This document shows positions 11,337-43,837 of a DNA stretch of 64,000 nucleotides, piece after piece. Position 1 is the stretch's first letter. Each line of letters begins with the position of its first letter. The position numbers were made by a program, and so were the translations under genes. This DNA is from Thermoanaerobaculum aquaticum. Lineage in GTDB: Bacteria; Acidobacteriota; Thermoanaerobaculia; Thermoanaerobaculales; Thermoanaerobaculaceae. Under the pieces are notes generated by a model, which saw only the letters and a program-made list of their open reading frames with translations, was not told the origin of the DNA and did not search any database. Location: positions 124,001 through 188,000 of the forward strand of contig NZ_JMFG01000002.1 in NCBI RefSeq assembly GCF_000687145.1. The letters are read 5' to 3'.

Positions 11337-11702
11337 GTGGAAGGCCCGTGGAGCTTTGAGGTTTTCTGGCGCTGGTTGGTCGGTCATCCCAACTGCATCT
11401 TGCGGGCCGGAACCCCAGAGGTGGCGGTGTACGACGATGAGGACCTGCACTGGCACTTTGCCGAGGACCCGCAGGAAGGGATGTACCTGGTGCAGGTGCT
11501 CCGGGGTAAGCGACCGGTGGCTGAAATCTGGGTGACCCCGGAGCAGGTGAGCTACGTCCAGGGCACCACCGGCGAAAACGAGGAGGAGTTCGTCTTTGAG
11601 CTCATCTCGGAAACGGAAAGGGAGCGGTTTGCCGCGTACGTGTTTGTTCTGAGCCACGGCTTCGCTCCCCACGACGATGCCACCCGCCTGCGCATCCACT
11701 GA
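11337..11702 (+). CDS. Conserved hypothetical protein between atpC and bshC
   Basis: About 121 residues, acidic, without signal peptide or membrane helix. It contains WHFAEDPQEGMYLVQVLRGK and VTPEQVSYVQGTTGENEEEF, which I do not recognise. The start is uncertain: TTG 11316, GTG 11331 and GTG 11337 are in frame. GGCGGAGG is best spaced for 11337. It follows atpC by about 26 bases and its last codons overlap the start of bshC, so it is probably translated in one transcript with both. Whether it serves the ATP synthase or bacillithiol synthesis cannot be told. Confidence 0.65.
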   Translation: MEGPWSFEVFWRWLVGHPNCILRAGTPEVAVYDDEDLHWHFAEDPQEGMYLVQVLRGKRPVAEIWVTPEQVSYVQGTTGENEEEFVFELISETERERFAAYVFVLSHGFAPHDDATRLRIH

Positions 11703-13233
11703 GCCCTGGGTCACCGTTCCCTTAAACCGCTGGGAGCCCCCCCACCCGGTCACCGCCGCGCTTCTAGCGGGCCAGCTCACCACCCCCAAACCAGAAACCG
11801 AAAAGGCTTTGCCCCGCTCTCCGGAGCTGGCCTCGGCCTTGGCCCAGCTCAACCGCCGCTGGGGCAACCCGGTGGACGAAGAGCTGAAATCTTGGCTTTC
11901 CGGGGCTTCGGTGGTGGTGGCGGGGCAGCAGCCGGGGCTTTGGGGTGGACCGCTTTTGAGCCTGGTGAAAGCCTGCGCGGTGGCGGCGGAGGTGGCCCGC
12001 TTGCGGGAGGCCGGCCAGCCGGCGGTGGGCTTTTTTTGGTTGGAAACCCGGGACGACGACCTGCCGGAAATGGGCTGGGGTCGGGTGGTGGTGGGCGGCC
12101 AGCTTCTGGAAGCCCGGGAGAGCTGGACCCGGGGGGAGGCCTGCGGCTTTGCCGCCGTGCTTTCCCCGCTTTCTTCGGAGCGGCTACAGGAGATCCCCCA
12201 AGATGCGCTTCCCCCTGGCGGCCTTGAGGCTTTCACCGTGGCCCGGGAGTGCTTTGCCCCGGGGCAGCGCCTGGGGGAGGCCTGCGGCCTCTTTTTTGCC
12301 CGCCTTTTGCGGGGCCTGGGGCTCGTGCTTGTGGATGCCAGCTTGCCGGAGCTTGCCCAGGCGTCCGCCTGGGCGGCCCAGAAAATCCTGGAAAAGCTCG
12401 AAGAGGCCTGGGGTTGCCTGGAGCACCGCGCCCGGGAGCTTGCCGGCCAAGGGCTTCCCCTTCCCCTGCGGCTGCGCCAGGACCTTTTGCCCTTTTTCCG
12501 GCTGGAGCAGGGTCGGCGCCGAAGGCTTGCGGCAAAAAGCGCTTTCCGGCGGCTTTCGGAGCTGGCCCATCACCCCGAAGGGCTCGCCCCCAACGTTTGG
12601 CTCCGCCCGCTTTTGCAGGACGCCGCCCTGGGCACCACCACCGCCATCCTCGGAAGCTCCGAGCTGGCCTACCACTGGCAAGCCCAGGACCTCTGGGAGC
12701 TTGCGGGCGTTCCCCAACCGCGCTGGCAGCTGCGTCCGCATATCACGGTGGTGGGTCCGGCGGAACGCCGGTGGGCGGAAAAGCTTGGGGTTGCCCCTGA
12801 GGAGCTGCTTTCCCCTCGCTTGCCCCGGAGGCTCTTACGGGCTTCCGGGCTGGTGAGGGATTGGGAGCGGCTTACCCACAAGTGGCTAGCCGACCTCCAG
12901 CGCTTTGCCGAAAAAGCGCGCGCCGAGCAGCCGAACCTCACCGGCGATTTGGAGGCCACGCAGAAGAAGCTCATGGGAAGCTTCTCCTGGCTGGCCCACC
13001 GTCTGGAAACCCGAGCGGAGGAAAGGCTCCAACTGGAGCACCAGCGGTTTTTCCGCCTGCGCCAGTCCCTGCGGCCTGCGGGTCACCCGCAAGAACGCGC
13101 CCTTTCGGTACTTTCCCCGCTGCTTGCTTTGGGTATGGACTTCCCGATCAGGCTGGTAGAGGCCCTCAAGGCCCTGCCCCCGGACCCCAGCCCCATGCAC
13201 CTTTTGTTTTGGAACCCCGGTGGCCCCTGGTGA
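11677..13233 (+). CDS. bshC: Bacillithiol synthase BshC (putative cysteine-adding enzyme)
   Basis: Protein of 518 residues, near the family norm of about 540. The family mark VVVAGQQPGLWGGPLLSLVKA lies at about residues 77-97 and is followed by the Rossmann-like core. A long coiled coil (about 400-460, EKARAEQPNLTGDLEATQKK) precedes the C-terminal end, as in known BshC. In the pathway BshC adds cysteine to GlcN-malate to give bacillithiol. The ATG at 11677 overlaps the upstream hypothetical gene. bshB and bshA follow after a short interruption by a cytochrome gene on the other strand, which strengthens the call. Confidence 0.9.
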   Translation: MPPACASTEPWVTVPLNRWEPPHPVTAALLAGQLTTPKPETEKALPRSPELASALAQLNRRWGNPVDEELKSWLSGASVVVAGQQPGLWGGPLLSLVKACAVAAEVARLREAGQPAVGFFWLETRDDDLPEMGWGRVVVGGQLLEARESWTRGEACGFAAVLSPLSSERLQEIPQDALPPGGLEAFTVARECFAPGQRLGEACGLFFARLLRGLGLVLVDASLPELAQASAWAAQKILEKLEEAWGCLEHRARELAGQGLPLPLRLRQDLLPFFRLEQGRRRRLAAKSAFRRLSELAHHPEGLAPNVWLRPLLQDAALGTTTAILGSSELAYHWQAQDLWELAGVPQPRWQLRPHITVVGPAERRWAEKLGVAPEELLSPRLPRRLLRASGLVRDWERLTHKWLADLQRFAEKARAEQPNLTGDLEATQKKLMGSFSWLAHRLETRAEERLQLEHQRFFRLRQSLRPAGHPQERALSVLSPLLALGMDFPIRLVEALKALPPDPSPMHLLFWNPGGPW

Positions 13234-13311
13234 TTGCCGGACGGGAGGCCGTCACGGGCGCGCTGGTTGCCGGAAAGCTTTCACAAGACAGCGAAAAAGC
13301 AGACAAACCCG

Positions 13312-13758
13312 TCAGGGAAGCTCCACCGCTTGCCTTTTCTCCCGGTGGTCGTGCTTAAAGGCTCCCCACTCCACGGCTTTGTGGTGGTCCTGTCCGTCGT
13401 GGCAGCGGTTGCACATCCCCGGGGCGGGCAAAACCAAACCGGCAGCCACCGACTTTTCCCGGTGCATCATCACCGGAATGGGCCAGTACTGCGATCCCGG
13501 TCCGTGGCAGGCCTCGCACTGCACGCCTTCCAGCGAGCCGTCGGGGGTGGTGGCGTGACAAGAAAGGCAGCTGGCCGCAAACCCCGGCGCTCCTTTTGCA
13601 GTTTTGGTGGCCTCGGCATGGGCCGATTGGCTCCAGGTTTCAAACTCCGGGCGATGGCAGGGCTTGCACTTTTCCACCCCCACAAACGTTGGCCCTTGCG
13701 CCGCCATAGCCGCTGCCAGGAGTGACGAAACTACAAAGCAGAAGGCGATTCGTCTCAT
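13312..13758 (-). CDS. Secreted tetrahaem cytochrome c
   Basis: A 148-residue precursor with a signal peptide (MRRIAFCFVVSSLLAAAMAAQG) and four haem-binding CxxCH motifs: CKPCH, CLSCH, CEACH and CNRCH. About one haem per 30 residues is typical of small multihaem cytochromes of the c554/NapC-NrfB type of arrangement. Distal His ligands can be supplied by the many other His residues (SAHAEAT, MMHREKS, DHHKAVE). It should carry electrons in the periplasm; the partner is unknown. It lies alone on - between bshC and bshB, convergent with bshC and divergent from bshB. Confidence 0.9.
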   Translation of the reverse strand: MRRIAFCFVVSSLLAAAMAAQGPTFVGVEKCKPCHRPEFETWSQSAHAEATKTAKGAPGFAASCLSCHATTPDGSLEGVQCEACHGPGSQYWPIPVMMHREKSVAAGLVLPAPGMCNRCHDGQDHHKAVEWGAFKHDHREKRQAVELP

Positions 13759-13835
13759 GAGTGCGAAGTTTACACCATCCCGGCCGATCTTGCTTGCCCA
13801 GAAGAGCAACAGCGGGTGTCTGCTAGTCTTTCCCG

Positions 13836-14570
13836 GTGGTGGAAGGACACGCGGAGCTGGTGGTTTTTGCCGCCCACCCGGACGATGCGGAGCTGGCCTG
13901 CGCCGGGACGCTGGCGGCTTTTGTCCACGGCGGGGGTAGAGCAGCCATCGTGGATTTGACCGCCGGTGAGCGAGCCTCCCGGGGCACCGTGGAACTGCGC
14001 CGCCAGGAGGCGGAAGCCGCCGCCCGGGTTTTGGGGGCTTCGCGCCTTTGTCTGGAGCTCCCGGACGCGGGCCTTTCGGGCAGCTCGGGTGAGCAAAGGG
14101 CAGCAGTGGTGAAAACTTTGCGTGCCCTCAAACCCGCCTTCGTGCTTTTGCCCCACCCCCACGACCCCCACCCCGACCACCGGGAGGCCAGCGTGTTGGT
14201 GCAAGCTGCCGCTTTTCTGGCGGGGGTGCGGGGGTTTCTTCCCGAGCTTGGGGAGCCCCACCGGACCCAGCTTCTCCTGGCCTACCCCGGCCCGCGGCAG
14301 GCGGGGGAGCCCACGCTGGTGGTGGAGGTTACCGCCCACTACCCGCAAAAGCGGAAAGCGCTGGCTTGCTACCGCTCGCAGTTTGCTCCCGGGGAAGGAC
14401 ACCCCACGCAGCTAGCCAGCGGGTTTTTCCTGGAGGCCATGGAAGGGCGGGATCGGGCCTTTGGCAACCTCATCGGTGTGCCTTGGGCTGAGGGCTTTTT
14501 TGCCCTGGGCCCGCTTTCCGGCAAGGCTCTAGGTGCTTTTCTGAAGGGAGTGCTATGCGCATCGGCGTGA
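13836..14570 (+). CDS. bshB: GlcNAc-malate deacetylase of bacillithiol synthesis (BshB type)
   Basis: Zinc-dependent LmbE/PIG-L family deacetylase of 244 residues. The metal-binding motif AHPDDAE lies at residues 12-18 and the second histidine block is HPHDPHPDHR near residue 110. It should remove the acetyl group from GlcNAc-malate to give GlcN-malate. Its 3' end overlaps bshA by 16 bases and bshC is close, so the substrate assignment is well supported by context. Translation begins at GTG 13836 (or the adjacent GTG 13839) without an SD; a TGCTAGTCT extended -10 ends seven bases before it, hinting at a leaderless mRNA. Confidence 0.9.
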   Translation: MVEGHAELVVFAAHPDDAELACAGTLAAFVHGGGRAAIVDLTAGERASRGTVELRRQEAEAAARVLGASRLCLELPDAGLSGSSGEQRAAVVKTLRALKPAFVLLPHPHDPHPDHREASVLVQAAAFLAGVRGFLPELGEPHRTQLLLAYPGPRQAGEPTLVVEVTAHYPQKRKALACYRSQFAPGEGHPTQLASGFFLEAMEGRDRAFGNLIGVPWAEGFFALGPLSGKALGAFLKGVLCASA

Positions 14571-15673
14571 CCTGTTACCCCACCGTGGGTGGCTCCGGGG
14601 TGGTGGCCACCGAGCTGGGTTTGGCCATGGCCCGCCGCGGCCATCAGGTGCACTTCATCTGCTACGCCCTGCCTTACCGGCTGGGACGGGTGCCAGCGGG
14701 GGTGACGTTCCATGAGGTGACCTTCCCTTCCTACCCGCTTTTCCAGCACCCCCCTTACTCTCTGGCTTTAGCCTCCCACATGGCAGATGTGGCAGCCCAC
14801 CACGGTTTGGAGCTGCTGCACGTGCACTACGCCATCCCCCACGCAGTTTCCGCGCTTTTGGCCAAGGAAATCATGGGGGGCGGACCCAAGCTGGTGGTCA
14901 CCTTGCACGGGACCGACATTACCGTGGTTGGCGCCGATCCGGCCTTTTTGCCGGTGGTGCGGTGGGCTTTGGACAAGGCCGATGCGGTGACCGCAGTTTC
15001 CCAAGCCCTGGCCCAGGAAACCCGAGAGGTCATCGGCACCCGCAGGGAAATTCAGGTCATCCCCAATTTCGTGGACCTCTCCCGCTGCGATCCCAGCTTG
15101 CAGGCTGCCTACCGAAGGCGCCTTTCCCCCGACGGCGCGCCGGTTTTGGTGCACGCCTCCAACTTCCGACCGGTCAAGAGGGTTCTGGATGTGGTGGAGG
15201 TCTTCCGCAGGGTGCATGAAAAGCTCCCCTGCCACCTGGCGATGATTGGCGATGGTCCCGATCGCCCTGCCGCCGAGCGGGCGGTGCGCGAAGCGGGGCT
15301 GGCCCCCTGGGTGGACTTTTTGGGCAACGTTTCGCCGGTGGAGGGTGCCCTGGGCGCCGGCGATGTGTTCTTGCTCCCCTCCGAACAGGAGTCCTTCGGT
15401 TTGGCTGCCCTGGAGGCCATGGCCTGCGGCGTGCCGGTGGTGGCCACCGGGGTGGGGGGGCTTCCCGAGCTGGTTACCCCCGGAAGCGGCGGCTTCCTGT
15501 TCCCGGTGGGTGACGTGGAGGGCATGGCGGCCCAGGTCACCGCGCTTTTGCAAGACCCCCAGGAGCTACTTAAACAAAAGCGGTTGGCGCGGGAAAGGGC
15601 GGAGCAGTTTTCCCAGGAAAAGGTGGTGGACGCCTACGAGGCACTTTACCGGCAGCTCCTCTCTTTGCCTTGA
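14555..15673 (+). CDS. bshA: N-acetyl-alpha-D-glucosaminyl L-malate synthase BshA (GT4)
   Basis: GT-B glycosyltransferase of 372 residues. The N-terminus RIGVTCYPTVGGSGVVATELG is the BshA/GT4 acceptor-domain start, HVHYAIPHAVSALLAKEIM is typical of BshA, and the donor domain carries the EX7E-like motif SEQESFGLAALEAMACGVPVV. It links UDP-GlcNAc to L-malate, the first committed step of bacillithiol synthesis. It has an RBS (GAAGGGAG) and overlaps bshB. The three biosynthetic enzymes therefore lie within 4 kb. Confidence 0.93.
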   Translation: MRIGVTCYPTVGGSGVVATELGLAMARRGHQVHFICYALPYRLGRVPAGVTFHEVTFPSYPLFQHPPYSLALASHMADVAAHHGLELLHVHYAIPHAVSALLAKEIMGGGPKLVVTLHGTDITVVGADPAFLPVVRWALDKADAVTAVSQALAQETREVIGTRREIQVIPNFVDLSRCDPSLQAAYRRRLSPDGAPVLVHASNFRPVKRVLDVVEVFRRVHEKLPCHLAMIGDGPDRPAAERAVREAGLAPWVDFLGNVSPVEGALGAGDVFLLPSEQESFGLAALEAMACGVPVVATGVGGLPELVTPGSGGFLFPVGDVEGMAAQVTALLQDPQELLKQKRLARERAEQFSQEKVVDAYEALYRQLLSLP

Positions 15674-38373: not shown

Positions 38374-38970
38374 GTGGATTTGCGTCCACCCAGCGTGCGG
38401 GCCTTGATGGAGGAACTGCAAAAGCTCCCCGGGGTAGGTCCGCGCTCGGCGGTGCGCATGGCCCAGTACCTGCTCAAAGAGCGGGAGGAAGCCTTAAGGC
38501 TTTCCCAAACGCTGGTGCAAGCCCATGAGCGCGTGGGCTTTTGCTCCACCTGCTTCCTTTTGGCCGAGGGCAGCTGCCCGGTGTGCGACGATCCCGGGCG
38601 GGATCGCACGGTGATTTGCGTGGTGGAAGAACCGGTGAACGCCTGGGCCATCGAAGCCACCGGCGAGTTTAAAGGGTTGTACCACGTGCTTCTGGGAACC
38701 CTTGACCCTCTGCGGGGCATTGGCCCCGAAGAGCTCACGGTGGCAAAGCTTGTGGACCGGGTGGCTGCCGGGGGTGTGCAGGAGGTCATCCTGGCCACCA
38801 ACCTCACGGTGGAAGGGGAAGCCACCGCTCATTTTTTGGTGCAGCTTTTGCGGCCCAAAGGCGTGAAAACCTCCCGCATTGCCTTTGGCTTGCCAGCGGG
38901 AGGGGAAATCTCGTACGCTGATACCGTCACCTTGGCTCGTGCCCTGGTGGCGCGCCGGGGGATGGAATGA
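38374..38970 (+). CDS. recR: Recombination mediator protein RecR
   Basis: Part of RecFOR, which loads RecA on gapped DNA. The 198-residue protein has the HhH-like KLPGVGPRSAVRMAQYLL, the zinc finger CSTCFLLAEGSCPVC, the Toprim domain starting VICVVEEPVNAWAIE, and the C-terminal RIAFGLPAGGEISYADTVTL. GTG start directly after the ybaB stop. Confidence 0.97.
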   Translation: MDLRPPSVRALMEELQKLPGVGPRSAVRMAQYLLKEREEALRLSQTLVQAHERVGFCSTCFLLAEGSCPVCDDPGRDRTVICVVEEPVNAWAIEATGEFKGLYHVLLGTLDPLRGIGPEELTVAKLVDRVAAGGVQEVILATNLTVEGEATAHFLVQLLRPKGVKTSRIAFGLPAGGEISYADTVTLARALVARRGME

Positions 38971-38985
38971 GGCTTGGTGTCGGGG

Positions 38986-38991
38986 TATACT
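38986..38991 (+). promoter_or_regulatory. Possible -10 element of mglB-mglA
   Basis: TATACT lies 28 bases before the mglB ATG, in the short space after recR. No good -35 is seen at 17 bases, so support is moderate. Confidence 0.35.
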
Positions 38992-39019
38992 GCAACTGGC
39001 GGCGCGGAGGGCAGAGGTA

Positions 39020-39514
39020 ATGAGCATGCTGGGGCCCAATTTGGTGATGTACGAGGAGGAGTTCGAGCGGATTAACAGCATCCTCTCGCGGCTATGGGTA
39101 GACGCTAACGCCAAGATCGTTTTCTTGGTTGACAAGAACGGCCAGCAAATTGCCGCTAAGGGCGATCTGGAAAAGGTGGACACCACGTCGTTGGCTTCGC
39201 TCACCGCCGGCAACGTGGCGGCTACCGATGGCTTGGCGAGGCTCATTGGCGAGAAGGAGTTTTCCATCCTGTTTCACGAGGGGGAGCGGGACAACATCCA
39301 CATCTCCATCGTGGCGCAGCGCTTGATCCTGGTGGTGATCTTTGACGAGCGGTCGTCGCTGGGTTTGGTGCGGCTGCGGGTGCGGAAAGCGGCGCAAGAG
39401 CTGGAGGAAGTGCTCAACGCCATGGCTAACAAAGCGGCGCAGCAAGGGCAGGCGCCGGTTTCTCCCTTTGCCGAAATTACCGACGAAGACATTGACAACC
39501 TGTTCTCCGAATGA
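39020..39514 (+). CDS. mglB: MglB-like Roadblock/LC7 protein
   Basis: A 164-residue cytoplasmic protein with a Roadblock/LC7 fold: [75 protein letters not shown]. In Myxococcus and Thermus MglB is the GAP of the Ras-like GTPase MglA and marks one cell pole. The MglA gene overlaps it by four bases, which makes the assignment firm. ATG 39020 or 39026 could be used. The C-terminal tail is acidic ([12 protein letters not shown]). Confidence 0.9.
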
Positions 39515-40095
39515 GCTTCATCAACTACGCTTCCCGGGAAATTAACTGCAAGATCGTGTACTACGGGCCAGGTCTGGGCGGCAAGACCACCAACTTGCAG
39601 TACATTTACGAAAAGACCAACCCCCAGGCCAAAGGGCAGCTCATTTCCCTGGCCACCGAAACCGATCGTACGTTGTTTTTTGATTTTCTCCCCTTGGATT
39701 TGGGGACGGTACGGGGCTTCCGTACGCGCTTTCACCTGTACACGGTGCCCGGTCAGGTGTTTTACGATGCCTCCCGGAAGCTCATCCTCAAGGGTGTGGA
39801 CGGGGTGGTGTTCGTGGCCGACTCGCAAGAGGCCCGCATGGACGCCAACCTGGAATCCCTGGAAAACCTCAAGGTGAATTTGCGGGAGAACGGCTTCGAC
39901 CTCATGACCATCCCTTACGTTTTGCAGTTCAACAAGCGCGATTTGCCTTCAGCGGTGCCTTACGACGAGATGTACCGCCTGTTGAACGTCAAGGGCGAAC
40001 CCACCTTTGAGGCGGTGGCCACCCAAGGGACCGGCGTCTTCGAGACCCTGAAAGCGGTGGCCAAGCTGGTGCTTCAGGAGCTTTCCAAGAAGTAA
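39511..40095 (+). CDS. mglA: MglA-like Ras superfamily GTPase
   Basis: A 194-residue GTPase. The P-loop [10 protein letters not shown] lies at 19-28; [20 protein letters not shown] and [18 protein letters not shown] cover the switch regions. The second motif reads TVPGQ instead of the usual DTPGQ, as in MglA proteins. The base-recognition motif is NKRDLP. MglA sets front-back polarity and controls motility machinery in Myxococcus; the role here is inferred from the mglB partner. It is followed by yvcK. Confidence 0.93.
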
Positions 40096-40143
40096 GAGCT
40101 GTCCTTTTTGTATACTCCCCCCGTGACGGCTGGAGAGGTGAGC

Positions 40144-41076
40144 ATGGTGGCCCTGGGGGGTGGTACGGGTCTGGCAACCCTCCTTAAGGGTGCCAAGACC
40201 TTGCCCCTCGCTTCGCTCACGGCGGTGGTGACGGTCACCGACGATGGCGGCTCTTCCGGTCGCCTGCGCCAGGAGTTTGGGGTGCCGGCCCCGGGGGACG
40301 TGCGCAACTGCCTGGTGGCGCTGGCCGAAGACGAGGAGCTTTTAACCCGGCTTTTTGCCTTTCGCTTTCCGGGGGAAGGCCCCACCGGAGGCCATTCCCT
40401 GGGCAACCTGTTCATGATTGCCCTCACCCACCTCACCGGGGATTTTTCGCAAGCGGTGCGGCTGGCCGGGGAGGTGCTGCGGGTGCGGGGCATGGTGCTT
40501 CCCACCACGCACGCCAACGTTCACCTGGTGGGGGAATCCGCCGATGGCCGCATGGTGGTGGGGGAAACCGCCATTTCCACCTCCGGCCCTCCCCGCCGGG
40601 TGGCGCTTTCGCCCGCGGATGCTCCCGCCCTTCCCGAGGTGTTGGCAGCCCTGCGGCAGGCCCAGCTGGTGGTTTTGGGACCGGGTTCGCTTTTTACCAG
40701 CATCATCCCCAACCTCTTGGTGCGGGGGGTGGTGCAGGCGCTGGCCGAAAGCCGGGCGCTCAAGGTGTACGTGGCCAACCTCGTGACCCAACCCGGCGAA
40801 ACCACGGGGTTTTCCCTGGGCGATCACCTCCAGGCTTTGAAAACCTACGCACCCTCCCTCCAGGTGGATGTGGTGCTGGCCAACAGCGAGCCTTTGCCTC
40901 CGGAGGTGGCTGCCCGCTACCGGGCGGCGGGGGCTGAGCCGGTGGCTTTGGAAGGGGTTTCCGGGGTTAGAGTGGAGGCGCGGAAGCTTTTGAAGGTCAC
41001 GCCCGAGGGCACGGTGCGCCACGACCCGAAGCGTCTGGCGCAAGCCCTCTGGGAGCTGTGGGAGGCACGGGCTTGA
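40144..41076 (+). CDS. yvcK: YvcK/CofD-family gluconeogenesis factor
   Basis: A protein of about 310 residues of the UPF0052/YvcK group, which binds UDP-sugars and affects cell shape and carbon flux in Bacillus. Seen are VALGGGTGLATLLKGAK at the start, TVTDDGGSSGRLRQEFGVPAPGDVRNCLVAL, LGNLFMIALTHLTGDFSQAV and VLGPGSLFTSIIPNLLV. ATG 40144 has GGAGAGG upstream. GTG 40123 is also in frame and lies seven bases after TATACT (40111-40116), which would make a leaderless product seven residues longer. It overlaps glmU. Confidence 0.92.
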   Translation: MVALGGGTGLATLLKGAKTLPLASLTAVVTVTDDGGSSGRLRQEFGVPAPGDVRNCLVALAEDEELLTRLFAFRFPGEGPTGGHSLGNLFMIALTHLTGDFSQAVRLAGEVLRVRGMVLPTTHANVHLVGESADGRMVVGETAISTSGPPRRVALSPADAPALPEVLAALRQAQLVVLGPGSLFTSIIPNLLVRGVVQALAESRALKVYVANLVTQPGETTGFSLGDHLQALKTYAPSLQVDVVLANSEPLPPEVAARYRAAGAEPVALEGVSGVRVEARKLLKVTPEGTVRHDPKRLAQALWELWEARA

Positions 41077-42026
41077 AGCTGGGCGCGGTGGTTCTGGCGG
41101 CGGGGCAGGGCAAGCGCCTCAAAACCGGGCTGGCCAAGGTGCTCCACCCCGCCCACGGCCGGCCCCTTTTGCAGTGGGTGCTGGAAGCGGTGGCCCCGCT
41201 TGCCCCGGCCAAGACCGTGGTGGTGGTGGGGCACCGTAGGGAGCAGGTGGAGGCGTTCCTTTCCGGGCAAAAGGTGGAGATAGTGGTGCAGGATCCTCCG
41301 GCCGGCACCGGCGATGCCGTGCGGGTAGCGCTGCCGGCCCTGGCAGGGTGCGAGCTGGCCTTGGTCCTCCCCGGGGATGCCCCGCTTTTGCAGAGCGAGA
41401 GCTTGCGCCGGCTGGTGGCCGCGTTCCAGCATGAAAAAGCAGCTTGCGCCTTGCTTTCGGCGGTGCTGGACGAGGGCGGGCCATACGGCCGCATTGTGCG
41501 CCGGGATGGAGAGGTAATGGCCATCGTAGAGGCGCGGGACGCCACTCCGGAGCAGCTAGCCATCCGCGAGGTGAACGCCGGGGTTTACGTGTTTAATGTG
41601 GCCAAAATCCGCCCCTTGCTTTTGGAGCTCACACCCACCAACAGCCAGGGGGAGTACTACCTCACCGATGTGGTGGCGGGGCTGGTGGCCCGGGGTGAAA
41701 AGGTGGTGGCCATGAGCTTGCAGGACCCCGAAGAAATGCTGGGGGTCAACACCCGGGGGGAGCTTGCCGAAGTGGGCAAAAAGCTCAACGCCCGGGTGGT
41801 GCGCTTTTGGCAGGAAAACGGGGTGACCGTCTTTGACCCCGAGACCACCTGGATCGAGGTGGGTTGCGAAATCGGTCGGGACACCGTTCTGGAACCCGGG
41901 GTGCACCTGCGCGGACAGTGCCGGCTGGGCGAACGGTGCCGGGTGGGTGCCCATAGCGTTCTGGAGGATGTGCAGCTGGCTCCGGGCACGCAGGTGGCGC
42001 CCTTGACGTATATGAGGGGGAGCTAG
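41073..42026 (+). CDS. glmU: GlmU-like N-acetylglucosamine-1-phosphate uridyltransferase lacking the acetyltransferase domain
   Basis: Nucleotidyltransferase of 317 residues. The N-terminal domain (about 1-225) has VVLAAGQGKRLKTGLAKVLHP, DPPAGTGDAVRVALPAL, VLPGDAPLL, GGPYGRIVR and INAGVYVF-like VNAGVYVFN, all GlmU pyrophosphorylase marks, so UDP-GlcNAc formation is expected. Only about 70 residues of left-handed beta-helix follow (GCEIGRDTVLEPGVHLRG onwards). Bifunctional GlmU is about 450 residues; the acetyl-CoA site and catalytic His of the C-terminal domain are absent. glmS begins three bases later, so nothing is hidden by a frameshift. Start at TTG 41073 with GGAGG seven bases upstream. 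Confidence 0.85.
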   Translation: MKLGAVVLAAGQGKRLKTGLAKVLHPAHGRPLLQWVLEAVAPLAPAKTVVVVGHRREQVEAFLSGQKVEIVVQDPPAGTGDAVRVALPALAGCELALVLPGDAPLLQSESLRRLVAAFQHEKAACALLSAVLDEGGPYGRIVRRDGEVMAIVEARDATPEQLAIREVNAGVYVFNVAKIRPLLLELTPTNSQGEYYLTDVVAGLVARGEKVVAMSLQDPEEMLGVNTRGELAEVGKKLNARVVRFWQENGVTVFDPETTWIEVGCEIGRDTVLEPGVHLRGQCRLGERCRVGAHSVLEDVQLAPGTQVAPLTYMRGS

Positions 42027-42028
42027 GC

Positions 42029-43837
<1,809 letters not shown>

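Follow-up and report, generated by a model that had tools for sequence, protein, structure and literature searches.

A GlmU without its acetyltransferase domain in Thermoanaerobaculum aquaticum and a standalone beta-helix protein as candidate for the missing step

Results

The glmU locus

The stretch of 64,000 nucleotides of the Thermoanaerobaculum aquaticum genome analysed here (the window) holds a shortened glmU gene between glmR/yvcK and glmS (Table 1). Its product has 317 residues when read from a TTG codon (a GTG at 41058 is a possible alternative start) to a TAG stop codon. The preliminary description of this DNA had called it a GlmU without acetyltransferase domain but with an intact uridylyltransferase half, and coverage of the family model, alignment with the E. 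coli enzyme and invariant residues all confirm this. Like bifunctional GlmU of E. coli and S. aureus, the short GlmU has the uridylyltransferase domain and the start of the beta-helix. However, coverage of the NCBIfam model glmU (TIGR01173) stops at 312–316 of 452 positions; residues 5–314 correspond to model positions 3–312, and the score of 305.5 bits is below the curated cut-off of 366.85. Alignment with E. coli GlmU (chains 1hv9 and 1fwy) covers residues 7–315, so that the protein ends before R333, at about residue 315–318 in E. coli numbering. The acetyltransferase beta-helix with R333, K351, H363, Y366 and N377 is absent. What is left of the helix amounts to about 3.7 coils, in which Pfam recognizes a single hexapeptide stretch (residues 264–297).

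Table 1. Features of the glmU locus and the standalone candidate protein
Feature	Position	Strand	Remarks
glmR/yvcK (CofD-like)	40108..41076	+	overlaps glmU by 4 bases
short glmU	41073..42026	+	uridylyltransferase domain and 3–4 LbH coils, without acetyltransferase active site
beta-helix stub of short GlmU	41820..42026	+	residues ~250–317
glmS, glutamine--fructose-6-phosphate aminotransferase	42029..43837	+	ATG start at 42029
P0002, standalone beta-helix protein	G000:C8:73874-74563		230 aa; other contig, outside the window

The uridylyltransferase residues R15, K22, Q73, D102, N168 and N226 are kept and invariant in five aligned short GlmUs. Three of them (K22, Q73 and D102) fit, at an offset of 3, the H. 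influenzae GlmU residues K25, Q76 and D105 that are named in an excerpt of PMC10128056. Close to the C-terminus, V308 and P310-L311-T312 are conserved in all five aligned sequences. Because of this conservation, and because 16 genomes of the same order end their GlmU alike, the early end is not a sequencing error. It had also been claimed that glmS begins three bases after the glmU stop and that no other frame holds the missing half. Both statements hold: the stop codon ends at 42026 and the ATG of glmS lies at 42029, and since the repeat of the stub itself is the sole match of the hexapeptide model PF00132 on this contig, the lost half is not encoded in another frame here. In a plasmid search, the annotation under the match was glmS or none in the best 20 of 258 records.

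In length and domain content, the short GlmU almost equals E. coli GlmU Tr331 (PDB 1fwy/1fxj, a 331-residue chain), which we take to be an engineered truncation that kept uridylyltransferase activity. In contrast to Tr331, it is natural, ends about 15 residues earlier and appears to have evolved across a whole order together with a partner protein.

Upstream of the glm genes, between recR and glmR (38879-40095), the window encodes a small protein, which we presume to be roadblock/MglB-like, together with a GTPase that matches the Arf family (25.2 bits). This pair is kept beside glmR or glmS in related genera.

Distribution of GlmU forms in the order and class

The T. aquaticum genome assembly (2.66 Mb, 68 contigs) is 95.8% complete. 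A full bifunctional GlmU elsewhere in it, which according to the preliminary description would make the short form a paralogue with another role, was found neither by the GlmU search nor by the PF00132 search and is improbable at this level of completeness; the next match to GlmU is an RmlA-like frame of 372 residues (E 2.6e-8).

Coverage of the glmU model was read in 147 genomes of the class, 37 from the order, including T. aquaticum itself, and 110 others. The order sample consists of two families, f1 (n=17) and f2 (n=20). GlmU is without the acetyltransferase part in 25 of these 37 genomes, which shows that the short GlmU is no assembly accident. Sixteen of them have a stub as in T. aquaticum (12/17 in f1 and 4/20 in f2; model end 306–327), and nine, all in f2, have the nucleotidyltransferase domain only (9/20; model end 236–248). 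Ten further order genomes (G023, G031, G084, G103, G109, G039, G063, G088, G094 and G107) are without a clear GlmU, i.e. without a match to the GlmU of the window at E 1e-20, and five of these ten are less than 90% complete; at a looser limit, nine of them give weak GlmU-like matches, the best at 5.8e-13 (G039). In the remaining two, GlmU is cut by a contig end (G051) or full length (G096). Outside the order, 95 of 110 class genomes encode a full GlmU, and the other 15 have it cut, divided between contigs or in an unusual form, or have none.

A tree of 41 nucleotidyltransferase domains groups the 12 short forms of f1 in one clade (99/98) and 13 forms of f2 in another (100/99). The full GlmU of G096 is placed apart from both on a long branch. 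Beyond the order, a genome of 2.0 Mb encodes a nucleotidyltransferase-only GlmU before glmS (G001:C40:36386-37087).

In principle, the short GlmU could be a paralogue with a different substrate, with the full GlmU hidden in the roughly 4% of the genome that is unassembled. The incomplete assembly in 68 contigs leaves room for this, and so does one order genome (G098), where a fragment of a GlmU C-terminus lies at the edge of a contig and is 50–60% identical to 14 GlmUs of other families; this fragment may stem from contamination (4%) or belong to a second GlmU. However, 25 of the 37 order genomes are without the acetyltransferase part and a single one has a full GlmU, and the glmR-glmU-glmS operon is the setting that one would expect. 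We consider the paralogue explanation highly improbable.

A UDPGP-type uridylyltransferase (PF01704) is encoded in 19/20 genomes of f2 and is absent from 14 control genomes. As a reason for the loss of GlmU, such a UAP-type enzyme was rejected: with 19/20 genomes in f2 and 0/17 in f1, its presence does not follow the state of GlmU.

A standalone beta-helix protein with acetyltransferase residues

The preliminary description had suggested looking for a separate hexapeptide acetyltransferase in the genome, and this led to one candidate, P0002. With candidates defined by PF00132 alone, the genome gave 26 matches, spread over nine proteins, one of which is the short GlmU. Inspection of the other eight sequences left P0002 as the only one that fits as the acetyltransferase; the remaining seven, judged by sequence reading, have other roles (LpxA, LpxD, gamma-carbonic-anhydrase-like, CysE, maa/DapH-like, a GMPP-PMM fusion and RmlA-long) and were set aside.

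P0002 matches best the C-terminal part of the archaeal GlmU model Arch_glmU (TIGR03992; 151 bits, positions 236–392) and second best alt_bact_glmU (TIGR03991; 117 bits), where the match is confined to the beta-helix part, positions 199–354 of 394. It is no archaeal-type GlmU in itself, having no fused nucleotidyltransferase domain and scoring 151 bits versus a cut-off of 292. Its best solved relative is the acetyltransferase part of ST0452 of Sulfolobus (9e-28 and 1.6e-27), with which it shares 54 of 150 residues without a gap, followed by GlmUs. The E. coli-numbered residues R333, E349, K351, H363, Y366, N377 and N386 correspond to R95, E111, K113, H125, Y128, N139 and N148 of P0002. For all but the equivalents of E349 and H363, the roles are those that we presume for the E. 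coli enzyme. For S. aureus GlmU, E348 and H362 are described as key catalytic residues in an excerpt of PMC11947611, and we take them as the equivalents of E349 and H363.

R95, E111, K113, H125, Y128 and N148 are invariant in 35/35 aligned relatives, which comprise 30 of 33 order matches and 5 of 27 strong matches from outside. The same six residues are invariant in all 19 sequences of a second set of named loci, at least 8 of which look like genomes of the first set. N139 is replaced by serine in one genome (G097). Judged by these residues, P0002 has the R, E, K, H, Y and N of the active site of an LbH-type glucosamine-1-phosphate (GlcN-1-P) acetyltransferase. A left-handed beta-helix fold like that of ST0452 and the GlmU C-terminus is predicted for a homologue that is 66% identical to P0002 (L142; pLDDT 83.6, pTM 0.84, 19-row alignment). 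When this model was compared with the PDB using Foldseek, ST0452 accounted for the top seven matches (TM 0.57–0.66 by query), followed by GlmUs.

P0002 thus resembles the archaeal ST0452-type GlmU (PDB 2ggo, 5z09, 5z0a) in the C-terminal beta-helix, the H/Y/N residues and the predicted fold of its homologue. It differs in that it has no nucleotidyltransferase domain, would pair with a bacterial-type GlmU and does not conserve K337 and K340 of ST0452, presumably functionally important residues that are replaced by G154 and T157.

Co-occurrence of P0002 and short GlmU

Relatives of P0002 at E <1e-69 occur in 33 of the 37 order genomes, or 34 if G003 is counted, where the first ~42 residues of a relative are found at a contig end. 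The other three (G080, G101 and G107; 92, 79 and 66% complete) gave weak hexapeptide matches only. Outside the order, a relative at E <1e-40 was detected in 27 of 110 class genomes. P0002 accompanies a GlmU without acetyltransferase part in 23/25 order genomes (G003 included), compared with 20/95 outside genomes with full GlmU. The corresponding Fisher p of 7e-11 is inflated by shared descent, as the co-occurrence is mostly that of one clade. The two order genomes with short GlmU and no clear P0002 (G080 and G101) are fragmented assemblies. P0002 was also not found in the genome outside the order with a nucleotidyltransferase-only GlmU (G001), and it occurs together with the full GlmU in G096. 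That P0002 coexists with full GlmU speaks against a strict one-for-one rule and suggests redundancy as the initial state. Given its presence in 20/95 outside genomes whose GlmU is full, P0002 can have, or once had, another function.

Gene neighborhoods of P0002 and its relatives

The gene of P0002 is not near the glm genes in T. aquaticum. A gene for a SpoIIE-type phosphatase adjoins it in 14 of 15 order loci inspected, and of 5 loci from outside the order, 4 have it convergent with the P0002-type gene; in T. aquaticum itself, the two genes overlap by one base (L122:8098-10067, G000:C8). A model in which acetyltransferase activity was handed over to P0002 does not explain this constant neighbor.

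A wider survey covered 80 named loci from 592 confirmed relatives, among the matches listed. In about 60 of these 80, a nucleotidyltransferase runs into the match, so that they are probably fused archaeal-type GlmUs, and about 20 look standalone. In two loci (L159 and L154), the standalone gene directly adjoins a GlmM-type gene or overlaps with it. In Halobacterium (L191), a stretch of 7 kb holds the standalone gene together with glmS, a nucleotidyltransferase and a GlmM-type gene (30% identity). A Patescibacteria contig (L177) carries a GlmU-like nucleotidyltransferase domain 5 kb from the standalone gene. In Schekmanbacteria (L149:4771-8684), an archaeal-type GlmU is followed by glmS and a standalone beta-helix protein with intact motif, and the fused GlmU has a degenerate GRLSF in place of the ST0452 motif PHLSY. 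This is apparently an independent hand-over of the acetyltransferase.

Discussion

The preliminary description had left two alternatives: another protein acetylates GlcN-1-P, or the substrate differs. With glmS, a glmM-type mutase gene (433.7 bits, just under the model cut-off of 447.55) and P0002 all present in the genome, the first is favored. Based on the truncation and its breadth, the retained uridylyltransferase residues, the residue match of P0002 and the co-occurrence, GlcN-1-P acetylation has in our opinion probably moved to P0002, an archaeal-type enzyme apart from a monofunctional short GlmU. GlmS and GlmM would provide GlcN-1-P as usual, P0002 would convert it with acetyl-CoA to GlcNAc-1-P, and the short GlmU would act as a working monofunctional GlcNAc-1-P uridylyltransferase and turn this into UDP-GlcNAc. 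The beta-helix stub probably still serves to keep the enzyme trimeric. P0002 resembles the C-terminal domain of archaeal ST0452-type GlmUs more than it resembles the lost bacterial domain. As other families of the class have P0002 beside a full GlmU, it is likely that redundancy existed first and that the acetyltransferase half of GlmU then eroded in the ancestor of the order. Consumers of UDP-GlcNAc are encoded nearby: at 11677-15673, the window holds bshC-like, bshB1 and bshA genes for bacillithiol synthesis. The earlier remark that bacillithiol also depends on UDP-GlcNAc via BshA thus stands, with BshA (501.5 bits) and BshB1 (219.1 bits) over their cut-offs and the BshC-like protein at 181.8 bits, where the cut-off is 265.8.

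Alternatively, P0002 could serve another sugar pathway, acting for example on GalN-1-P or an envelope sugar, with GlcN-1-P acetylated by an unrecognised enzyme or GlcNAc obtained by salvage. The P0002-like proteins beside full GlmU outside the order and the usual SpoIIE-type phosphatase neighbor would agree with this. On the other hand, none of the remaining PF00132 proteins is a suitable candidate judged by its sequence, the retention of GlmS and the GlmM-type mutase points to de novo synthesis, and relatives in other phyla have GlmM-type or GlmS neighbors. We regard a different pathway for P0002 as unlikely.

A eukaryote-like route, in which a GNAT like GNA1 acetylates GlcN-6-P, the GlmM-type mutase yields GlcNAc-1-P and the short GlmU uridylylates it, seems quite unlikely as well. 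The short GlmU could function in both routes, and seven GNAT-family proteins of the genome score over the Pfam cut-off. However, none of these seven PF00583 matches stands out as GNA1-related among the six scanned against NCBIfam and the three compared with the PDB: one is a RimI over cut-off and the rest of the six are weakly RimI-like, resistance-type or without match, and the three PDB searches gave putative D-Ala, N-terminal and generic acetyltransferases as best matches. The structure 3fb3, which we take to be trypanosome GNA1, was a weak match (E 0.009, rank 39 of 40). The GNAT search used PF00583 alone, so that a GNA1-like protein could hide under other GNAT models. In addition, the mutase present scores as GlmM.

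The protein encoded directly upstream of the short glmU belongs to the same family as Listeria GlmR/YvcK. According to an excerpt of PMC10128056, Listeria GlmR forms UDP-GlcNAc from GlcNAc-1-P and UTP, showed no acetyltransferase activity and is accessory alongside GlmU. D45 and D46 of the protein encoded here are the presumed counterparts of D40 and D41 of Listeria GlmR, and the stretch NLVTQPGET is present. GlmR occurs in 8/37 order genomes (in G019 as a fragment only), including both sampled genomes of genus g4. In one of these (G031), glmR is directly followed by glmS without glmU in between; in G023 (g3) and G103 (g6), where both glmR and glmU are missing at this place, a GTPase gene is directly followed by glmS. 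It is conceivable, and we put this forward only tentatively, that GlmU was dismantled stepwise: the acetyltransferase would have been handed to the archaeal-type enzyme, the stub then lost in nine f2 genomes, and in g4 the gene would have gone altogether, leaving GlmR as main or only maker of UDP-GlcNAc; g3 and g6 would need a further uridylyltransferase. In loci L281, L308 and L309, the glmU gap lies between conserved GTPase and glmS genes, and g3 and g6 are also without glmR. The four genomes G023, G031, G084 and G103 (g3–g6, no clear GlmU) moreover encode a GlmS-like protein that is 37–38% identical to GlmS of the window (L300–L303); three of these genomes have the usual GlmS as well.

A GlmU without C-terminus has also been noted in Chlorobaculum limnaeum. 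In an excerpt of PMC7725333, its acetyltransferase domain is noted as absent, as in the short GlmU described here, and the species is counted there with the free-living organisms that have no UDP-GlcNAc pathway; the excerpt names no replacement protein. In the open-access literature, no title or abstract was found on a standalone glucosamine-1-phosphate acetyltransferase that partners a short GlmU, and the literature search gave no characterised member of the standalone beta-helix family.

UDP-GlcNAc is a building block of the cell wall that is made via GlmU, an essential enzyme that combines two steps in one protein and is regarded as a drug target. An entire order in which these steps are divided illustrates how a bifunctional enzyme is dismantled. 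The findings presented here suggest a function for a standalone beta-helix family that is found in several bacterial phyla and archaea. Genomes that are scored as lacking the UDP-GlcNAc pathway for a short GlmU, such as C. limnaeum in the excerpt of PMC7725333, may use another acetyltransferase instead.
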